A stretch of DNA of 64,000 bases from Arenicola marina (lineage: Eukaryota > Annelida > Polychaeta > Arenicolidae): positions 33,741,759 through 33,805,758 of the forward strand of contig OZ025249.1 of assembly GCA_964019135.1 (NCBI GenBank), written 5' to 3'. The notes below the pieces were generated by a model. The model was not told the DNA's origin and did no database searches. It was given only the letters and a program-made list of their open reading frames with translations. Every line of letters starts with the position of its first letter. Position 1 is the first letter of the stretch. Below, one piece after another: positions 6,501-64,000 of this stretch. The translations under genes were made by a program, and so were the position numbers.

Positions 6501-9500
6501 TTGCTGTCTTTCCTGTGGCAGTTTGCCCTGTTGTCTCTCCTCTGGCAGTTTGTCATGCTGTCTCTCCTCTGGCAGTTTGCCTTGCTGTCTCTCCTCTGGC
6601 ACTTTACCTGCTGTCTCTCCTCTGGCAGTTTGCCCTGCTGCCTTTCCTCTGACAGTTTTCCCTGCTGTCTCTCCTCTGACCGTTTGCCCTGCTGTCTCTG
6701 GTAGTTGTTCATGCTGTCTCTCCTCTGGCAGTTTGCCCTGCTGTCTCTCCTGACAGTTTGCCCTGCTATCTCTCCTCTGACAGTTTGCCCTGCTATCTCT
6801 CCTCTGACAGTTTGCCTTGCTGTCTTTCCTGTGGCAGTTTGCCTTGCTGTCACTCCTCTGGCAGTTTGCCCTGCTGTCTCTCGTCTGATAGTTTGCCCTG
6901 CTGTCTCTCTGGCAGTTTGCCCTGCTATCTTCCCTGTGGCAGTTTGCCCTGCTGTCTCTCCTCTGGCAGTTTGCCCTGCTGTCTTTTCTGTGGCAGTTTG
7001 CCCTGCTGTCTTTCCTGTGGCAGTTTGCCCTGCTGTCTCTCCTCTAGCAGTTTGCCCTGCTGTCTCTCCTCTGGCAGTTTGGCTTGCTGTCTCTCCTCTG
7101 GCAGTTTGCCTTGCTGTCTCTCCTCTGGCAGTTTGTCATGCTGTCTCTCTGGCAGTTTGCCTTGCTGTCTCTCCTCTAGCAGTTTGCTCTGCTGTCTGGC
7201 AGTTTGCCCTGCTGTCTATTCTCTGACAGTTTGCCTTGCTTTCTCTGGCAGTTTACCCTGCTATCTCTCCTCTGGCAGTTTATCATACTGTCTCTACTCT
7301 TTTCATGCCATGCTATTGCATTGTCAAGGTATATCCAGTGTAACTTGTGACAAATATGCAATTATAGTGTTTCCATGGTAGGTTACTATTTTTTATCAGT
7401 AATTGTTCATGAGATCCTTATCACATTGCACAAGGTCAATTTGTTTGTTCCGCACTGTTGTGTAGTTTAATATAATGTATGGCAGATATAATGTTCCCAA
7501 CTACCAATTAAATTTGTATCAGAATAAAAACAGGAGTAACAACCACAGGCCCATTCTATATCAGTGCCAAAAAAACCCCAGCACTTACCAAACTGAACCA
7601 GCAACCACAAACCATAAGTAAATATTAATATAATCTTCACACTGTGTTTCCCTCTTACATCTGTCACGTTCTCTTCCCATGGGAATCTTCCTGGCTCAGA
7701 TGATATCAGCTGCATATAAACAGACTATGGTCATGCATCCTGGCACCTCCTTCTAGGGCATGTTTCATGCTATCACATCACATTGTCACCTGTTTTTTGG
7801 CCCTGTTTAATGTACATGTATACACATATGGCTTAAAACACTCAACAGTTTATTGTCACTTTGTATTAAAGCTGTTCTGGACTGCAGCGAATAACTGGAA
7901 ACTGCAGACTGAAATCGCGAGCATTTTTGCTGGCTGTGTAAAATATTCTTTTTAGTATATGTTATTTCCTTTGTTTCAGGTGGTTGACATGTGCAAAGTG
8001 TTGGAGGTTCTCTCCATACTGGAGAAGTATCCCATCACAAAGGAGGCTTTGGAAGTAGGATATTTGTTGTTACATGCAGTTCTCTAAAAATTGGTGTAAC
8101 TTGTATTTATTTAGTGCATAAATGTCACCCTTTCCATCAATTTTGTATGCATAGAATGAGGAATTGTATCACGTTCAAAATCTTTCAAAATCTATCCTTG
8201 GTATGTATAGTGTATAGGTCAAATTATTGTAATGACCACAAAGTTACTTTCGATAACTGTGAGCATATTCGTTTCCCTTCTACAACATTTCCAGTTTTAT
8301 AAGATTACTGTTTATTAGTAAATATTATAATATTATTAAAGTGGATGTTGTTTTCATACATACACATTTTGTAAGCTTGGACGCTTTGGGTGTAATGTAC
8401 ATGCATGTTCTTATATGCCAAATATCTGTTTAATGAAATCTATTGTAATGATTCTCTTCAGCAAACACGGATTGGAAAGCTTGTCAATGAGTTACGAAGA
8501 AAGACCTCAAACAAAGATCTGGCCAGGAGGGCCAAAAACCTTGTCAGAAAATGGCAGCAATATGTTTCTAGTGGAGGGGTTACCGCCCCGGCTTCGACGC
8601 CACAACGAGGGATCAACGGGGGCCGAATAACCCCTGTTTTCGGGGGTGTTGCTGGCGGCGGCGGCGGCAGCACCCTCCCCTCTCACGTTACCAGTAGCTG
8701 CAGGCCTGCCAGCCCTGCCAGCCGGCCCTCCACCCCGGCCAACAACAAATCAAATGTGTTTCCCCCCACCAGCCTTCCCACGCTGTCCTATATCTCGGCG
8801 ACCAGTCGACCGGGCACGCCGTCGTCGGGGTTACAGTCGCGGCTGTCCCCGCGCCTGGCCCAGGCCGTGCGCACCGCCCTGCCCGGCAGCAAGCCGGCCA
8901 GCCCCGCCGCCTTCGTCGCCGACTCCAAGGCCAGACTTAGCCCCGACTTGGGGCCCAAGAACAACATCAGCCGCCCCGGGACGCCGACCGAGTCGCTGTC
9001 CAAGGTCAACGTGGCTAACAAGCGCAAGAGGAGGGGGGACGAGGACCCCTCGCCCACTTCCGATGTCGCCGTGCCTGCCAAACGTCCAGTCAATAATGAT
9101 CCCCTATCCCATCGCCAGCACGGCTCTTTAGCGGATGTCGCTCTCTCGAATAGCGACGGCCTCTGCAACGGCCTCGTGTCTGGCGGTTTACACCATACCC
9201 TGAGCGCTGACAACTTGTCTGTTTATGCTGAAGAGAGGGCATTAGCGCACCACAACAGCGTCAATGCTGTTGGCACCTCTTGTAATACTTCTGTGATGAA
9301 GGGAGACCAGGGCGCGACGACGCCGCAGTCTGGTCTCGCCTTGAGACGGAACGCGTCCTGTCTCACGGTCCAGACTGATTCCAGTGCAGATGTGATACGC
9401 GCCGAGACGCCGGGGTCCGGCTTGGACACGCCGCGATCAGACCGCACCCCGTCGGTCGCCCGGAGTCCCAAAGTCAAGACGACGGCCCAGTTGATCCAGA

Positions 9501-10243
9501 GGCTCCACACCAACTACGGCCTGACGCTCCGGAGCAGCGAGACGGTGACGAAGATCGCGCTGAATCAGATCGAGAAGGAGCCGGACTACCTTCCCGAGTC
9601 TGTGGTGCCGGCGGGAGCCAAGCCCCGGCCACGCCGCAAGCCCGGCACCGTGCCCCCGAGCTCCTCCGACAAGGCTCTCAGCGAAACCAAAAACGAAATG
9701 GTGCGGAAATTCCTCCAATCCTCCATCCCCGCCTCGCCGTCGCCGTCGGAGGTTGATCTCCTGAACTTGATCAAGATGGATCAAAAACATGCGGAATCTC
9801 CGGAGGCCGACTCCGGCGCGGCGTCGGTGTCGGAAAACAACGGCGTTCGGTTGCTGTGCAGCGCCCAGTCGCGGTCGGCGTCGCCGGCGGACGCGTTACT
9901 ACGTCTCCGTGGCAACAAGCACTCGGGCGGCCGCGGCCACTCGGGACAGACCAACGGTCACTCGGCCCCGGCCGTGCGGGACGTAGACCCCTGGTCGCTG
10001 CTGCCACCTCTCGACCTGGACAGTATTAACTGGGACGAGGACGAGGCGACCGAGGCGCCGCCGCCCGAGCCACCGGAAGTGACGGACGAGGTCCTGGACC
10101 GGCTGGAGACGGACCAATGGGAAGGGGTCAACGGACGGACAGACGCGGACGGGGCGTGGCGCAGTTGGACGAATACTTATTCGATGCCCTCCTTCGACGC
10201 CGAGCCTTTACACATATTACCCTATGTTAACATAGACGACTGA
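3560..10243 (+). CDS. MED26: Mediator complex subunit 26 (three exons)
   Basis: Coding exons are 3560-3622, 7980-8054 and 8462-10243, all joined in phase 0 at canonical sites (AAT|GTAAGC, TTTCAG|GTG, GAA|GTAGGA, CTTCAG|CAA). They give 639 residues; human MED26 is about 600. Residues 1-85 form the TFIIS N-terminal (LW) domain, with VVDMCKVLEVLSILEKYPIT from exon 2 and RIGKLVNELRRKT from exon 3. In known MED26 proteins this domain recruits elongation factors to RNA polymerase II. The middle is a long disordered Ser/Pro/Ala-rich linker. The C-terminus carries LPPLDLDSINW and ends HILPYVNIDD, matching the conserved Mediator-binding tail. Exon 3 is strikingly GC-rich compared with exons 1-2 and the introns. 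Exon 1 is only 21 codons. The start is the first ATG after the candidate promoter, and the family's short N-terminus fits it. The gene converges on STIL. Confidence 0.95.
3623..6440 (+). other. MED26 intron 1, first part
   Basis: A/T-rich intronic DNA between MED26 exons 1 and 2. Open frames at 3798-4070, 5328-5606 (minus) and 5993-6241 show no domain and no conserved motif. I see no RNA gene or defined transposon. Confidence 0.55.
6465..7300 (+). repeat. 27-bp minisatellite in MED26 intron 1
   Basis: About 30 tandem copies of a 27-bp unit, typically CTGTCTCTCCTCTGGCAG followed by TTTGCCCTG, with some units shortened by 3-12 bases. Read on the MED26 sense strand, each unit is a pyrimidine tract ending in CAG, so it resembles a 3' splice site. 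Because 27 is divisible by three and the unit has no stop, long Leu/Ser/Cys-rich open frames run through it on both strands. These frames are a consequence of the repeat and not genes. The array lies about 700 bases upstream of the real exon-2 acceptor at 7979. Confidence 0.9.
7301..7979 (+). other. MED26 intron 1, last part
   Basis: Ordinary intronic sequence between the minisatellite and the exon-2 acceptor TTTGTTTCAG ending at 7979. Nothing else is recognisable. Confidence 0.6.
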
Positions 10244-15262: not shown

Positions 15263-18200
15263 CTATAACAGTTTCGGTAACTCCTTAAGTCTTTCAATGT
15301 CTAAAATCTTCGCGGGGGGTTTTCCCTCTCTTTTCAACTTCGGTGCACCCTCCACCCCAGCTCCCAGGTAAGCCCCAAATTTATTAGAGTCTTGACCATG
15401 TGGTGGGTTTGCGCCAGGGGTCCCCGGGTATTGGTGGGACTGACCCCCGTCGCGGGGGCTTTGGGGGTTTCCTGCCCCCCGGGGGGTCTGCTGTGGTGCG
15501 GCGAGGGCCGTCGTCTTACGGCGCAGGCTTGGGTGAGCTGGGGAGGAAGATGCCCCGGGCGTCCTATTGGACGTGACGTCAGATGAGGCGCCGCAGTGGC
15601 TACCGGAAGCCGAGCCGCGACGCCCGGTGGCGCGGAACGACTCGCCGTCCGAGTGGTACAGCGGCGCGGCAGTGGCGTCACGGCCGCTTCCGGAGTACTG
15701 GCAGCTATAGCAGGACACGTTCCCATCCGCACACCTCAACAGGCTGGTATCCGACATGGCGTTCTCGTTCGTAGCGTGGCCGCCGCCACGGCCACTTGCC
15801 GATGCCGTAGTCTCGTTAAGCGACGCCCCATCGCGCGTACCCACGAAGCTACTTTCACTCAGTTTCCGCAAGAAGTCCTGGATATTCAACACGGCCGGGT
15901 TTTCCGCGTACACCTCTCCCTCGGACGGGCTGTCCGTGCCCGTGTCCTCCGGCGATTGACCCTCTCCCAGCAAACCGTAACGCTCCAGGTACTTGCGGGA
16001 AGCGAACGACATGTGGTTGGCAGACATGCCGTATGTGCTGACGTCGGACTTGGCGCCCGCTGACGCAGCGACGCGGTCGAGGCCCCCGCCCCGTGGCGCC
16101 GCCTTGCGAGGGGAGGTGCGCAGTCGGGCCAGCTCCGACAGTTGCTCGTCGGAGAGGTACTTCATGGCCAATGAGTCGGCGGCCGTGCTCTGGTCAGTGT
16201 CGCTGCCGTCCAGGAACATCGACACGTAGTTAATCTTGGGTAACATAATCGAGTGGAGATAGGTACTCTGGTCACAGCTGTAAAAGATTTGAGATCATCA
16301 GTATTCATTTAGTTATCTTTTAAACAAGTGTAGAAAGTCACAAGTGCATATTGAAATCATAAAACAGTTCATGCTAAGTCTATGCCTAAAAGCGCGTAAC
16401 TGCTGAATATTCATGGATGTAACATGTGGCCTCATAATTACGCATCATTTGTGTCGTACTCAATTCGAAAATTCTTTGAGAGACCACTAAAATAAACATA
16501 TATTGATTTCAAGCACTTCGAAAAATGAAAAATGACGCCAGACAGTACACAAATTGAGTAATCGTTACGGGACTGAAAAAAACAGTTGCAATAATATTGT
16601 CAGCCAGTAAATCGTTTATGTCGGTAGCATCTGCCTCTGTATATGTATTTATAATAATGCAATCTACCTGCATAGAGCTAAGAGTCGAGTGTGAAATTAG
16701 TGATTAATGATGGCAATATGACAGAACAGAGATGGCGGTTATACCTGCTGGACTTTTCCGATTCCCGGCCACTCTGCTCCAGATTGACGCCCATGTCCAG
16801 GAGCTGTTTCCGAGTAAGGGCGGCCACGTCGATCGTCTGATCCCGAACGCTGTAAGACTCCTCTCTGTTGTCGGTACTGTAGTCCGGACCCGTTCCCTGC
16901 ACTCCGTGACATCTGGATCCCTGCAGTGGGGTGTCCGGGGCTCGCCGGTCCGTAGCAGTGGTGTCACGTGACTCTGTCGCCGTGGTGTCACGTGCCGTAG
17001 TATCGTTGACAGAAGTTCCACTTCTATTGTGCAACAGCTTCTGGACATTGCCCTGAAAAAGATTAGGCTTTCTTGAGAACTCTTCCATAAATATTCGATA
17101 ATTTTATATCTACTCTCTTTGTGTACATGATTTACATACGACCTTTGTCGCAGATACCATTTTGATGGAAGTCAAAACCGACACAAATCGAGTGGTATAT
17201 CAGATTAAAACTATGGGTGGAAATGAACAAGCACAAGAAAGCCAAACTGTGCCAAGCCACCTCCCGGGATTGTGGAATGGTGTTGAATGAAACATGCGCC
17301 AGGTTCAGGAGCGGGACCCAAGCACCTGTTGAGCTCAACCTGCTTTTGTTTTGTTTTTTTAAATTTCACACAGAAGATCGACGTGAACAGTAATACAGAA
17401 TCACAAAGAAAATACAATACGCATTAACAATTTCTAATAATACACACAATCTGTACATTTACATAGCCTTGCAATCGATAATGTATCCCATTTACTGTAT
17501 ATGCACTGCTTGGCTTTGTCACTTATAAGGGTATTACCTATACCTAGAGTTTCCAGTGTATAATGTTTAAGAATTATTTTACAAAATATTGCGATATACA
17601 TATATCTTCCTCAAAATCTACAATCGTAAATATATTTCTTTGCCAAAAGAGCTCAGCCTGCTTAGTAACGGAGCTACTGTGGTTCCTCTCGAAAGACATA
17701 TGGTAAACTTACTATGAGATTCTCATAGAACTGTTTGTTGTACGGCAGACTGATGGCTGGGTGACTCTCTCCCAGCCCAGCATCTAACTCGTCTTCGCCA
17801 TCAGGCTCAGGAGTATCTTGCTGTAATCAGAAGCATATCAGATAATCGGACTAATCAGATACAACAACCAGTAAACCCATGACATGAAAGAATTAAACAT
17901 ATAGCCTGGTAAACCACAATTATGACGACGAAGAAGACACATGTAATACAAAAGAGTGGTTTCAGACCAAGACGGCTTTTTTCATCAAGAGGTCACTAAT
18001 TATGAGAGACACACTCACAAGTGTTACCCAACACCTTGAGGACACCTTGAGGTGTTTGTGTCTTGTAGACCGCCACTGAGCGCCTCTGGGTAGAAAATTG
18101 GATACGCCATGGAAGAATCAAAGCCTAGCTGGCCATGGCCCCATGAGGATATTTCAGAGACTTGATCCTTTTCTTTTTCTTATTCACTGCTATTACTATT

Positions 18201-21200
18201 GGATGCTTACCCGCTCGTACATGCTGACACTCTCTCCCAGCACTGGGCTTCTGTCACTGTCGGGGTACCAGTCACTGTTTCCCATTTCAGTTCTGCGGAA
18301 ACACGAACATAAGCACATAAGAAAGTGTCACGCTTTGTACACTTATAGTCGACAAGGCAGACATTACTTCTCGGGGGAGATGGAGGTGTATGCCAGCATG
18401 TCGACAAGGCAGACATTACTAAACTTACTTCTCGGGGGAGATGGAGGTGTAGGCCAGCATGTCGACAAGGCTGACATTACTAAACTTACTTCTCGGGGGA
18501 GATGGAGGTGTAGGCCGGCATGTCGACAAGGCAGACATTACTAAACTTACTTCTCGGGGGAGATGGAGGTGTAGGCCAGCATGTCGACAAGGCTGACATT
18601 ACTAAACTTACTTCTCGGGGGAGATGGAGGTGTAGGCCGGCATGTCGACAAGGCTGACATTACTAAACTTACTTCTCGGGGGAGATGGAGGTGTAGGCCG
18701 GCATGTCGACAAGGCTGACATTACTAAACTTACTTCTCGGGGGAGATGGAGGTGTATGCCAGCATGTCGACAAGGCTGACATTACTAAACTTACTTCTCG
18801 GGGGAGATGGAGGTGTAGGCCGGCATGTCGACAAGGCTGACATTACTAAACTTACTTCCCGGGGGAGATGGAGGTGTGGGCCGGCATGTCGACAAGGCTG
18901 ACATTACTAAACTTACTTCTCGGGGGAGATGGAGGTGTAGGCCGGCATGTCGACAAGGCTGACATTACTAAACTTACTTCTCGGGGGAGATGGAGGTGTA
19001 TGCCGGCATGTCGACAAGGCTGACATTACTAAACTTACTTCTCGGGGGAGATGGAGGTGTAGGCCGGCATGTCGACAAGGCTGACATTACTAAACTTACT
19101 TCTCGGGGGAGATGGGAGGTGTGGGCCGGCATGTCGACAAGGCTGACATTACTAAACTTACTTCTCGGGGGAGATGGCGGTGTAGGCCGGCATGTCGACA
19201 AGGCTGACATTACTAAACTTACTTCTCGGGGGAGATGGAGGTGTAGGCCGGCATGTCGACAAGGCTGACATTACTAAACTTACTTCTCGGGGGAGATGGA
19301 GGTGTGGGCCGGCATGTCAACAAGGCTGACATTAATAAATTTACTTCTCGGGGGAGATGGCGGTGTAGGCCGGCATGTCGACAAGGCTGACATTAATAAA
19401 CTTACTTCTCGAGGGAGATGGAGGTGTAGGCCGGCATGTCGACAAGGCTGACATTACTAAACTTACTTCTCGGGGGAGATGGCGGTGTAGGCCGGCATGT
19501 CGACAAGGCTGACATTACTAAACTTACTTCTCGGGGGAGATGGAGGTGTGGGCCGGCATGTCGACAAGGCTGACATTACTAAACTTACTTCTCGGGGGAG
19601 ATGGAGGTGTGGGCCGGCATGTCGACAAGGCTGACATTACTAAACTTACTTCTCGAGGGAGATGGAGGTGTAGGCCGGCATGTCGACAAGGCTGACATTA
19701 CTAAACTTACTTCTCGGGGGAGATGGAGGTGTGGGCCGGCATGTCGACAAGGCTGACATTACTAAACTTACTTCTCGGGGGAGATGGAGGTGTGGGCCGG
19801 CATGTCGACAAGGCTGACATTACTAAACTTACTTCTCGAGGGAGATGGCGGTGTAGGCCGGCATGTCGACAAGGCTGACATTACTAAACTTACTTCTCGG
19901 GGGAGATGGAGGTGTAGGCCGGCATGTCGACAAGGCTGACATTACTAAACTTACTTCTCGGGGGAGATGGCGGTGTAGGCCGGCATGTCGACAAGGCTGA
20001 CATTACTAAACTTACTTCTCGGGGGAGATGGAGGTGTAGGCCGGCATGTCGACAAGGCTGACATTACTAAACTTACTTTTCGGGGGAGATGGCGGTGTAG
20101 GCCGGCATGTCGACAAGGCTGACATTACTAAACTTACTTCTCGGGGGAGATGGAGGTGTAGGCCGGCATGTCGACAAGGCTGACATTACTAAACTTACTT
20201 CTCGGGGGAGATGGCGGTGTAGGCCGGCATGTCGACAAGGCTGACATTACTAAACTTACTTCTCGGGGGAGATGGAGGTGTGGGCCGGCATGTCGACAAG
20301 GCTGACATTACTAAACTTACTTTTCGGGGGAGATGGAGGTGTAGGCCGGCATGTCGACAAGGCTGACATTACTAAACTTACTTCTCGGGGGAGATGGAGG
20401 TGTAGGCCGGCATGTCGACAAGGCTGACATTACTAAACTTACTTCTCGGGGGAGATGGAGGTGTAGGCCGGCATGTCGACAAGGCTGACATTACTAAACT
20501 TACTTCTCGGGGGAGATGGCGGTGTAGGCCGGCATGTCGACAAGGCTGACATTACTAAACTTACTTCTCGGGGGAGATAGAGGTGTAGGCCGGCATGTCG
20601 ACAAGGCCGTTATTAATAAACTTACTTCTCGGGGGAGATGGAGGTGTGGGCCGGCATGTCGACAAGGCTGACATTACTAAACTTAATTCTCGGGGGAGAT
20701 GGCGGTGTAGGCCGGCATGTCGACAAGGCTGATATTACTAAACTTACTTCTCGGGGGAGATGGAGGTGTAGGCCGGCATGTCGACAAGGCTGACATTACT
20801 AAACTTACTTCTCGGGGGAGATGGAGGTGTAGGCCGGCATGTCGACAAGGCTGACATTACTCAACTTACTTCTCGGGGGAGATGGAGGTGTAGGCCGGCA
20901 TGTCGACAAGCATATCAGACATGATGCTCTCCTCGGTTCTGTTCTGAATTCCGGTCAGCTGCCACTCCTCCATGCTGAGCGTGTCATTACTGCCGGGGGC
21001 TCCGACCTGCAACCCGTCGAGGTCCCCTGGCTCCGGACCCTCGGGCAGTGGCTCGTGGGGCTGGGGCCGGCGGGGTGCGGCCGCGGCCGCGCCCATCGCG
21101 TGGAGCCGGCTGTCGGGAGGTGGGGTCGACTGGCGGCGGCGGGCCCCCGGATCAGGGTACCCATGCGGTAATATGACTCCACGGGAGATATCCTGGGTGC

Positions 21201-24200
21201 CGCTGCAGCGTGGGTCCAGCTGTGTGTCGTTATGTGTCAGGTTATCCGTGCTGTTGTCATGGCAACCGTTGCTATGCTGTTCTTGATCGAGCCAGCGAAG
21301 ACTAGTGTTGACGGCGATAGAGCAGCGACCGGGCACTGAGGCCGAGCGCTTCATCTGTGGCCGACTAGCGGAGGAGGAGAAGGAGGAGGAGGAGGAAGAC
21401 AAACTTGAATCGGCAGCGGATTTGACACGTGTCAGCGTCGCTTTGTCATGGTCCCGCTCACTAGCGGGCGGCACTGGGTTGCTCTGCGGCTGCGTTGCGT
21501 TATTGTCAGCTGCGCCGCCGCCATTTTGTCTCATCGTTAGCTCCTGCAGCTGTTCCCGGAGCAGTCGCAGCTGCTCGTCCTGCACCTTCAACAACTCGTA
21601 CACGTCACTAGGAATCTGTGACGTCACGCTGGCCCCGGATGCCGTTTGATCCAGATGGCCTCCAGAGTCTCCGGAGTCGTTGCTCTGCATGCCGCTGTCG
21701 GTGGATCCAGAATTGTGACCCGGAGAAGAATTGGCGCTGTCCTGATCAGCTTTCTTGGGCGGCTGCGAAGTCAGGTGGCAGAGGCCTGGGCCTTGGGCCT
21801 GGATCGGAGAGGGGAATGGGGGCTGGATCCCACCTACTGTCGTGGCGGTGGGTGGAGGCTGGGACTGCTGAGGCTGCGGCTGCTGCTCTGGCACGGATCG
21901 TGCTGGCAATCGTAGGTCCGCTCCAAGGGTCTGTCCGCTGTGGTGACTGGAGAGAGCTAGGCCGCCACTGGACTGCTCGGCCACCGAGTACTGACCTTGA
22001 CCTTGGTAAGCTCCGTGACCTTGACCCTGGTAAACTCCCTGAGGTCCTTGAGGTGGCGCCACTGACTGCGTCACGGTAGCACGGTGACATCCGGCAGCTG
22101 ACGGGTGGGGCGCGCCAGGCGGTTGTCCCATGTACTGAGCGGCGCTGAATCTCTGGATCATCGCAGCCCGAGGGTGGCGCTGTGCCGGATCACCGTAAGA
22201 GTTGGCCGTGGCGGGCGTCGGCCCCCCTGAAGACGAGTATTGCTGAGTCACCACGGCGGTCGCGGGCGACATATTGGGGTGTGACCCCGGCCCTGGGCGC
22301 TGCGGGTGGTACCCTTGAGGATACCAAGGCGGGTTTGCGTATACTCTCGGCGGCGGTCCGCGCAGCTGCGATGGATCACTGGCTGCTGAGGACGGGTTGC
22401 CATACGGTTGCTGCCACTGCGGTTGCTGCTGTCGTGGATGCTGCTGCAGATATTGCTGTTGCTGATGCGGTTGCTGCAGTTGCTGCTGCATTAGCGGCTG
22501 CTGATGCGATTGCTGCTGCAGTTGCTGTGGTTGCTGCTGCAGTAGCGGCTGCTGCTGATGCGGTTGCTGCTGAAGTTGCTGTGGCGGAGCTGAAGGGTGA
22601 TACTGATGCGTCTGGTGCTGTGCATTCAAGTGGGTTGCCGCAGGTCTGTGGTTGGCCGGCAATCCCGGGCGCACACCGCGAGCAATCATCGGGCGGTGCG
22701 GCGGCTGTTGGCGCGGGCCTTGGGCTTGAGGTTGGTAGGACTGCTGGAACCTTTGCATTCCAAGTAGGCCCGGGTCAGCCATGCTCCGAGGGAACGGGGC
22801 TGGGGAATGTCCCTGAGCACCGACCCAAGACGTGGACGGGATGGAATCCGTAGTCTCGCCACTGACGGAGCCTCGACTGAGCGTTCTGCCGGGGTCATCA
22901 AACAGAAGGCTGACCTCCGGCACGGACGGCGTCACCATGGGAGCCTGGAACGTTCATACAACCATTGCAGGCCTCGTGGAATGCAACAAATATGGAAACA
23001 TCGCGATGATCTTGATACTTTTACATATACATGTAGGTTAGTGCAGTACCAGTCAAATACAGTCATAGGAGGAACGTTATGCCCCTATTCGTACTTACTC
23101 CACAAGGTTTAAAGCCCCGGAGTCTGAACAAGAAAGGTCAAATCGACAGCCGGGAACGTTAACTGTAAACTGAACGTGCCGTACAAAATAAGTCCATGGT
23201 AGCGCCGCGTACCTGGGCTCTGCATGGGGCAGGTGTTGACCGAGGGGTAATATCTTCCATGCTTCCTGATTGATGAGATTCTAACTGCAGGTCACTGGAG
23301 TTCTGTATGTCACAGGAGTCGGTTTTCAAGGCTCTGGAAGACAGACATAATAAATTTAATTGCAAATAAAATTTCGTACAGTTTTTCTTTAAACAATCCT
23401 GTAAAAACAAGTTTTCGCCTATTTGGTTCTGCAAATCAATCCGCACTTGGGGTTACCTAAAAATGGTAGCATATTTACTACTCACAATTTGCTAAGGATC
23501 ACCTCTATGCAGAGATATCTGAGTGTGTAACAGGTGACCGTAATTCTACTAGTGTATAACAGGTGACTCTGTAATTCTACTATAATACAAAGACGTTTGC
23601 CTTTACCATGCATTGTGGCACACGAGTAACAGATTGGACACAGATTGGGGAAGGTTTATCTGTATTATAGCGGAATCACACAATCACCTGTTATACACTC
23701 AGATATCTCTGCATAGAGGTGATCCTTAGCAAATTGTGAGTAGTAGATAAATACACTATATCTATGGTAATGGCAAAAAAAGGGTCATGTTCAGAAAATA
23801 TATCATTCTTTACATGGAGGAAGGCATAATGCATTATCATAATGCATTATCAATGTCTAATCATTTGTGACGATATCTAGCGCTAATACCAAATAGTACC
23901 CATAATTCAAACATCACATGCGATGGCGTCTCACAGTGGATCAATCGGAACTACGATTAGCGAAGTGGTTTATTGAAGAACTGCCGATATGGGCGTTGCA
24001 CTGTATATACTGACCCGAGAGACCTCTCCAAAGCAGCGTCAAACAGCACCCTCTTGTCCCCGCTCTCCACAGCCACCGTCTCCAGTTCCAGGGGGCTCTG
24101 GGCGCGGCCCAGATAGTCCTGACAAAGGGACACGAGACTGGCATGGACAGGGAGCAAACCTCATCACAATAAACCAGAAAACATAAAACACAGCAATGAT

Positions 24201-27200
24201 GCCATGCACTACAACAATTGGGTGATTAAGGAAATAAACGTTCCATTCCCATCAATTCATCTGGTTTTCCTGTCCCAAAGTGCTCTGGCAATCGCAAACA
24301 CATCAACAATTCAATCAGCTTGTGTCGTCCAGCATCCAAGCTGTCTCTATCCCCAAATTGCACGTTCACTTCACTACGTTCAACGCATTTTAAACAAAGA
24401 AAATTAAACGATGCTACCCTTTGTTCCATGTCCCTATATGGCGATATATGAAGTGCCTTACCATGAGCACTCTGATCTAAACCACGAACGCGAAAGATAT
24501 TGCCAATTCTCAAACGTGAACGTCAAATTGACAAATAAAAATCAGAGTATTTCAAGGACAGACTATGATGCTTAATTGCATGACTGTCTAACCTTCGGTA
24601 GCTGTATGACTTCGTGGCAGGACTTGAGCGAGAAGGCGACGGAGGCCTTGCCGTCGCTGGTAACACACTCGTAAAACTCGGGCTTGGAGTGGAGCGGGGA
24701 GTACAGGACGACAAGGAAGGCTTCCGGCGGGCAACAGATCCTCGAAAGACACCAGAACACACACAGTAACAGTCAATCAATGCTAATGAAATAACTTTTA
24801 TTTATGAGGGCGCTCCACGATCAGGTGTCAAATCCACGTGTAACGGTGCAGCTAATACAGGTCTTGGTTAATTACAACTATCATGGACATATGTGTAAAA
24901 TGACATAAACTTAAATTGAAGTGTCACGTGGTAACATTATCCATTATAAGGTACTTACTTTTCTTTCAGACTTGCATTAAATAGGTATCTAAGACAACTG
25001 GCCCATATGAACGGATCGTGAATGTTGGCCAGTCCGCTGACCCAGCTGGAAGTGAGATTATTTTATCTTGATTTCAAACTACAAACGTGATATCTTCATA
25101 AACAATGGACCGACTACGAAACAGTTACATTAGATATTTTGCAACTATAATATTATTGTATATACAGCACAGTATGTAATCGCACCATATTCTGGAACTT
25201 GTAACAGTCAGTGATCTTTACAGGCGAGATTGTTCAGCATTTAGCTCTAACACACACTTGAGATGTATTTAAATAAGTAGAACGCAAGTGAAATACGTTA
25301 AAGCCACAGTTGTACAATCGGCCGACAAACGTGACATGCTAATAAACACCGAAGACTACGCGGTACAACACACTATATCATATATGCTATGTATATTAGT
25401 GAATATCGTATGAAACAAAAGACACTTACATTCCAACCAGCGGTAATGAGTATACTTTTGGATCTGATTCCAGTGTCAGAAGTAGTTTTCTTGTGTGATC
25501 CATAGTTAGATACCTAGAGGGAATGAACAATAGTTTCAAGGTTCGCACTCAGGGAGACAATGTTCCGAGCTAAGCTGCAGCGGGCGGGTAAAGTAACATC
25601 ATATCTCTCACCCACAATAACCATACAATTATGGAATGTGCTTTGGCAAGCGTGAGACTCCTTAAAACCCTTCAATAATTAAGGTAATGATACGTGATAG
25701 CTATCGGGGTCATACCCGGTTTTCGCTTCCCCCTGGACTTCGCTCATGCTGAGTGGACCCGAGAGATTTTTCGAGAGCGCTGTTGGTACAACTGGAATGG
25801 CGTTCACTGGCGTCATCTTGAGTGCAGTTGCCATGGAGACCAGATCGAAATCCAGGTGAAAGATGAAGCTCTGTTGGTTTCCATGGTAACTGCAGTTTGC
25901 TCGCAAGCACATGAAGTGGCTGAGATCCACGCGAGATTTACACGTGCATCGCTCGTAAAGCACCTGCAGCAAAAGGTCGTCATTTATTATATTTAATGGT
26001 ATTTATTATATTTAATGGTATGTTCTTCCTTGTCTGTTGGTAAACACATTCACAGATTAATCATAATGTTTCTGTACATATTTGTACATATACTCACCTG
26101 GACGGCTGATTCATAATCCTCGACTGAGCTACATGGCTTTGCACTGTTTTTCTTCACCTACAAATAGAACAAAATAAGGATGTACTACAAAACTTTGCAT
26201 CTTTGTACAAGTATTAAATGATGTTTTATAAAACGTTTCGCAATAATGACAATTGATTCTTACCGTTTAAAAACCTCATAAACCTCACATTCACTTGGCC
26301 TATTGTTAAGTATATCGAAAGATAAGCTCTGTGACTTTCAATAGGGAAGTATTATGATACACAGATTGTTGTTACCCTCACAGAAGTAAGATATTTTGCA
26401 TAGTCTATCATGAATTCTAGGCAAACCAAAGGTAAAACATTTTTTCTTAGACAAACCTCATAATCCTCATGTTATAATTATGAATATAATTCAACTCTAT
26501 TATAATGTATAAATTGGTCTTTAAGCCACCCTTTTGCACACACGGATCACACACAAACCAGGGCAAGCACCCTTGCAAAGAGTTAGATTAGAGGATGACA
26601 CCTGGCGTTTGAACTTGTATCAGGCTGCCTCGCGACCATGGCGATAAACTGGGCACTCACCACGCACGGAATATAAACCTCTCCGGGTGATAAGCTGGAC
26701 AGTGACTGGTCATGATCATTGTGAGGAGTCTTAAATCGGTCAACTGATATGGTGACGCCTGTTCCATCTGCAAGAAATAAATCAATGGTTATTTCCCTGG
26801 ACAATGTTTTTATTGGTAGATAATAATACTTATATCTAATGCTAAGTCGAACTGAATGTATATTTATATCCTTACAAATTTCTTTAGACCTACCTGGCTC
26901 AACTGACAAAGAACCGATGAATATACATCTGTAGGTGTCTTCACTGGTTTCCTGAGAAAATCGGTGAGCAAGGCGCAAGGTTTTCTCCTCCACAACTATG
27001 ACAGGTTCCCTGAAAAGGTAAATCCAAAACCTTATGAAAAATGTATGTGAAGGCAGGAGTGATAAATCTTAACAAATAAAAGTACACATCAATACAAAAA
27101 CGTGACACCTTCAGACCTCTGATTGGTTAATGCCCATTTGGCCTAACTTTAATAGTTATTTAAAATACAGACAAGATCAAATGTAAATAAGAAATTATTT

Positions 27201-33999: not shown

Positions 34000-36327
<2,328 letters not shown>

Positions 36328-45981: not shown

Positions 45982-63399
<17,418 letters not shown>

Positions 63400-64000
63400 C
63401 TACGGGAGACCAGAAGCCAGGAAACACCCTAAAGCCACAGGCCATTGCTTGGCGGAATCTGAATAGGCGTTTGAACCCACCTTTGTGCACACATGGCACG
63501 AGTCGGTCCGGTCCGGAGTTGGATAGATTCATGAAGGGGTTTTTCGAGTCACCTTTTTGTACACATGGGATAATCAGGACCAATTAAGTAGCCTCCATAA
63601 AGGACGTGATTTAATGGATTCACTTTATTCACCCCAATGAGCAATGTATGGTTCAAACAACCTGTGACAAATTCCTTTGAGGCCCATGGGAGGCTCACCC
63701 GTGGGCCGGACCATGTAATCATATTATGCTTACAATGATATTAATCCTGGGACATCGGTTAAATAAGTTAACCACATACAAATCCTAACGGATTTAATGG
63801 CGACTAGGAATACATTTGTCCATTACGATAACGGTTGCAATGCGACAGAATCTATAATGGCCTACAATGACCGATGCACTCGATGACAATATGTATGATA
63901 GGTGAATAAATATAGCTGTTTGCAATGACCCGCCCCCATCCGCCCCCCCCCACCCTTTTCACACACACACACACACACACATCCCCCATAGTCATCCACT
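63400..64000. other. Right edge: intron of the vWA/collagen gene
   Basis: No further exon of the vWA gene is recognisable. Fragments of the dispersed TTTGTGCACACA repeat occur at 63478-63500 and 63550-63570, and C-rich and (AC)n runs end the window (63940-63980). Confidence 0.5.

Follow-up and report, generated by a model that had tools for sequence, protein, structure and literature searches.

The STIL gene and its surroundings

The minus strand of the window, which is the whole stretch of 64,000 nucleotides analyzed here, carries a STIL gene, and nearly all of one intron of this gene is occupied by a minisatellite whose unit repeats the end of the preceding exon together with the 5′ splice site. 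The assignment to STIL, already made in a preliminary description of this DNA, agrees with matches to the STIL_N family (PF15253) in two upstream exons, at 26583–27068 (6.1e-11) and 25679–26002 (3.8e-21), both of which are above the Pfam cut-off. The 3′ part of the exon preceding the minisatellite, numbered exon 12 in the preliminary description, is located at 20870..22953 on the minus strand, the upstream limit being that of the open frame rather than a mapped acceptor, and its last 40 nt are the exonic part of the first unit. No Pfam or PDB match was found for the frame at 20866–22953 (minus strand), which, when followed from 22953 to 20866, reads through the exon end into GAG AAG TAA.

The exon–intron boundary was placed from the reading frame and the splice signals. 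The first donor, GTAAGT at 20864..20869 (minus strand, with its G at 20869), is presumed from the unit listing and the joined frame to be the authentic 5′ splice site. The acceptor AG ends at 18293, and the frame joined to the exon starting from 18292 is open. This next STIL exon covers 18211..18292 (minus strand), its end being read from the sequence, and is followed by a donor GTAAGC. The exon after that, at 16678..17052 (minus strand), begins with GNVQKLLHN after TTTTTCAG by reading of the sequence; its 3′ limit is an open-frame limit, and it has no Pfam match. Further downstream, an open frame at 15263..16294 (minus strand) contains a stretch, picked out by eye, that resembles the STAN motif; this frame matches neither a Pfam profile nor a PDB entry.

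STIL is flanked by MED26 at 8396–10243 (plus strand) and by an exon of the adenylate-kinase family at 34852–35133 (plus strand). The latter is possibly CMPK1, which is a neighbor of STIL in vertebrates, and the MED26/STIL/adenylate-kinase-family neighborhood is a possible case of conservation. On the minus strand of 47014–63583, exons for EGF, collagen-like (GATG-rich) and VWA domains are found in series and probably belong to the extracellular matrix, in a single gene or several. Neither Rfam nor a tRNA scan had a match in the window.

A minisatellite made of an exon end and a 5′ splice site

By splitting of the minus strand into units, the 61-bp minisatellite at 18348..20909 is composed of 42 units and an 8-bp partial copy; TRF places it at 18364–20910 with a period of 61, 41.7 copies and 96% matches. 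Each unit consists of the final 40 nt of the STIL exon and the initial 21 nt of its intron (GTAAGTTTAGTAATGTCAGCC), so that a full unit reads TTGTCGACATGCCGGCCTACACCTCCATCTCCCCCGAGAA followed by GTAAGTTTAGTAATGTCAGCC. The units are arranged head-to-tail from 20909 downward, and the partial copy stops at 18348. Unit length is 61 nt in 40 of the 42 units, the exceptions being unit 30 (62 nt) and unit 42 (52 nt). This last unit, at 18356..18407 (minus strand), is 9 bp shorter than the others, and an intron starting from its donor would be 75 nt in length. The array accounts for 2522 nt of the 2577-nt intron, and the 55 nt left before the next exon (18293..18347, minus strand) are read as a pyrimidine-rich stretch and the CAG acceptor. 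Thus, two claims of the preliminary description, that the unit spans the exon end and the 5′ splice site and that the array fills practically the entire intron, hold in the unit splitting, the joined frame and the lengths, and the boundary-spanning array in STIL is confirmed as real in the sequence.

The 40 full units share a mean pairwise identity of 96.9%, with 42 substitutions altogether at 16 variable sites out of 61. Arrays of this kind often have an uncertain copy number, and the 264-kb region including the window contains 200 N letters; an assembly artefact, by which the copy number was inflated or the array misplaced, is nevertheless highly unlikely, since the 42 substitutions occur in mixed order across the full units, the array sits in a 61.5-Mb contig, and a second place with the unit was not found among the best candidates scored. 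In that search, the exon end plus unit 1 was used as a query against the whole assembly (867 Mb, 762 contigs), and all of the 42 matches fell within the STIL array or its exon flank on the 61.5-Mb contig; because only the best candidates were scored and very common words were skipped, the uniqueness of the array is not thereby proven.

The ends and the internal order of the array bear on its origin. A short repeat, (C)TTGTCGAC, is present at both ends, and the same nine letters, CTTGTCGAC, open and close the array, which would fit a first duplication by slippage between two short repeats. Units next to each other resemble one another no more than units in shuffled order do (summed distance 75 vs 74.1). 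Simple one-unit slippage does not explain this, so that the array probably grew in other ways as well, and events of exchange or conversion that involved several units at a time are suggested.

Donor sites, reading frames and competing explanations

In the preliminary description, the splicing machinery was said to meet about 42 near-identical donors. This is slightly generous: GT is kept in 41 of the 42 units, and the full GTAAGT hexamer is found in 39. The deviating donors are TTAAGT in unit 4, which has lost the GT, GTAAAT in unit 26 and GTAATG in unit 42. Within the 40 full units, 2 of 240 donor cells are changed as compared with 40 of 2200 elsewhere in the unit, and the donor letters are not clearly, or significantly, more conserved than the remainder. 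In the pseudo-exonic copies, codon reading gave four synonymous and five non-synonymous changes at nine variable sites, and these copies look unconstrained. Variation spares neither the donor nor the codons convincingly. Unit 42, which lies closest to the acceptor, has been deprived of its strong donor by the 9-bp shortening; this concerns a single copy, and the loss could be due to chance or to selection against a proximal donor.

RNA structure masking the decoy donors was considered and found no support, as donor 1 has a lower predicted accessibility than the average of the other copies, not a higher one (0.036 vs a mean of 0.098 for units 2–41 in one setting, and 0.005 vs 0.048 in the other). 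In three stretches of one or two units, the predicted fold is only mildly stronger than in shuffled sequences (z from −1.65 to −2.15).

Splicing directly from donor 2, 10 or 41, the three that were tried, gives GAG AAG TAA, that is, PEK followed by a stop codon immediately beyond the normal end of the exon and ahead of the presumed STAN exon. For these donors, the earlier claim that any later donor truncates the protein in frame is correct. The related claim that splicing has to start from the first donor is a deduction from the reading frame, not from transcripts; first-donor use is a prediction from the open frame.

If later donors did compete, a share of transcripts proportional to the copy number could be diverted, either into decay or into a protein cut short ahead of the STAN region. 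The early stop after donors 2, 10 and 41 and the retention of GTAAGT in 39 of 42 units are in favor of such dosage tuning, but the donor letters are not significantly more conserved than the remaining unit. Furthermore, comparable repeats in amphioxus, the “mirages,” which are minisatellite-like tandem duplications of exon–intron boundaries, many of them with splice signals (PMC3087553), appear, from Adh3 data and globin RT-PCR, to leave splicing undisturbed (PMC3087553, PMC3902484). Dosage tuning is thus unlikely. An action in trans, in which the array would serve as a nuclear U1 sink or splicing sponge, had also been put forward. Each transcript would indeed offer 39 strong donors, but STIL is one gene and nothing was found pointing to a sink; U1 snRNP is very abundant, and about 40 sites per transcript make so small a demand on it that this idea is hardly credible at all. 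Neither of these functional suggestions finds support in the present analysis.

Another scheme, absent from the preliminary description, is that units are sometimes spliced in as cassettes. The distance from the internal AG of the unit (in TGTCAG) to the donor is 42 nt, which keeps the phase and would add 14 residues per unit. Joins with one and two cassettes, for which the sequence of unit 10 was taken, keep the frame open, and CAG at the internal acceptor is kept in 38 of the 42 units. Such in-frame cassettes would yield variable STIL isoforms and, the unit being frame-compatible, might be a way in which exons or introns arise anew; birth of exons and introns from mirages has been proposed for the amphioxus globins (PMC3087553). 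On the other hand, the match in phase is expected one time in three by chance, non-synonymous changes are frequent among the unit variants, and, by reading of the sequence, the internal acceptor has no adjacent pyrimidine tract and other AGs lie just upstream of it. Because this acceptor context is poor by eye, we regard the cassettes as very unlikely. The broader proposition that copy number sets the fraction of STIL with the C-terminal part missing or altered, through either donor competition or the 42-nt cassettes, is improbable too; if true, a fast-mutating minisatellite would tune a centriole-duplication gene.

A probably neutral boundary-spanning array and its host

The surroundings are rich in minisatellites. 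Taking arrays with a period of at least 10 and at least 4 copies, 36 arrays cover 70,140 of 264,000 bases (~27%) in the region including the window, and the largest reach up to about 22 kb (74 bp × 304). GTRAGT is found in the unit of 3 of the 36 arrays, including the STIL array, where letter shuffles predict 1.7 (P = 0.23), and in 2 of 35 when the STIL array, which prompted the study, is left out. The arrays thus show no sign of a general attraction to donors. In such minisatellite-rich surroundings with no significant enrichment of donor hexamers in the units, the array is best read as a neutral one that happened to form on a splice site.

We therefore favor, with a probability of about 0.8, a mirage-type minisatellite, that is, a short duplication of the boundary that grew to 42 copies, with the first donor used and the copies neutral. 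A short tandem duplication would have happened to span the exon end and the 5′ splice site of the STIL intron, and slippage, unequal exchange or conversion would have raised the copy number to 42. The spliceosome would then pick the first donor, the one adjoining the upstream exon and the earliest to be transcribed, and the whole array would be removed; the copies may have been retained because they are located inside an intron. The mode of origin, the use of the first donor and neutrality are all parts that we infer. Intron-proximal donors are generally expected to compete well, so that use of the first donor would not be automatic, and the low predicted accessibility of donor 1 also weighs against this reading. 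The array is a natural test of spliceosome choice among some 40 near-identical donors, and exclusive use of the first donor would make it a clean natural case of exon-linked choice over intron-proximal copies. Donor choice has been described as dependent on SR-protein binding and site strength (PMC5585400).

A feature of this kind is already known from amphioxus. Mirage cases have been described in globins, Adh, troponin C and PGBD5 (PMC3902484), and length instability of mirages was reported together with a model of intron gain (PMC3087553). Like the mirages of Adh3, troponin C, the globins BflGb6 and BflGb9, and PGBD5, the STIL units span an exon–intron boundary, carry splice signals and are contiguous with the authentic exon end, unit 1 being that exon end. 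The host differs, being an annelid and not a cephalochordate, and so does the copy number, which is 6 and 3 in BflGb6 and 2–7 in PGBD5 according to the published descriptions, as compared with 42 in STIL. Data on the amphioxus mirages suggest normal splicing, which on the neutral reading would also be predicted for the STIL array. The annelid host and the 42 copies are the new parts. No annelid mirage was found in a search of open-licence literature, which does not prove absence; the STIL array suggests that boundary-spanning mirages reach beyond lancelets, the lineage in which they were named.

Related repeats have been reported in other animals. In human, internal tandem repeats at exon–intron boundaries are found within segmental duplications, in recently duplicated genes, with units of 30 bp on average in 4 copies, and 27 intron modifications were described (PMC2812944). 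These repeats resemble the STIL array in having minisatellite-length units at exon–intron boundaries, and they can alter splicing; unlike the STIL array (61 bp × 42), they are short and few in copies. Metallothionein genes of earthworms, which are also annelids, have large tandem arrays in the first intron with monomers of ~180 bp on average, and in one clone duplicated fourth exons are missing from the final transcript (PMC12783039); this is a near case, although a splice site inside the units does not feature in the description consulted.

In the region around STIL, a second boundary-spanning minisatellite is possible, though not proven, at 60154–60947, where the donor presumed for a VWA exon marks the start of a 29-bp × 27 array. 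If the donor is rightly placed, the match to the unit starts 3 nt inside the exon end and continues through the intron, with a score of 37 that was reached in 0 of 1000 shuffles; the spanning of the boundary is uncertain because intron sequence belonging to the array in any case contributes most of this score. Two other arrays were rejected as further mirages. The perfect 17-bp × 5.8 array at 63128–63226 starts some 8 bases inside an intron, so that the donor lies outside it, and the array at 66824–67216 starts ~75 bp past the donor at 67292 and has no significant homology to it (P = 0.28). The donor before the former array, at 63233, belongs to another VWA exon. In a TRF survey of 10 tektin loci, arrays were found in three; a survey of exon ends through Pfam kinase and VWA families yielded no loci.

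The host is identified as an annelid from its mitochondrial gene order and from the annelid erythrocruorin-linker domain. Amphioxus as the source was rejected on these markers and because its genome is smaller than the 867-Mb assembly. In the 15,942-bp mitochondrial contig, the long reading frames share a strand and follow the order ATP6-ND5-ND4L-ND4-ND1-ND3-ND2-COX1-COX2-COX3-ND6-CYTB, given without ATP8 and the rRNA genes. COX1 was named by Pfam, and nine of the ten other frames tested with Pfam matched a family; ND2 matched a general antiporter-type family only and was named by position, COX3 was named by eye, and so was ND6, which had no Pfam match at the 1e-5 limit. The same order is tabulated for two siboglinid annelids (PMC10815697), and the annelid mitochondrial genes studied so far are on one strand (PMC4505326). 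The linker domain has four matches in the assembly, and four PDB matches are hemoglobin linkers; the 14 controls of this search were all prokaryotes and are uninformative on other animals. Several short contigs of the assembly (C443, C465, C504 and others) have strong, high-scoring protein-kinase matches in spite of being broken by TAG/TAA, and these could be contamination from an organism that uses TAA/TAG as sense codons, for example a ciliate.
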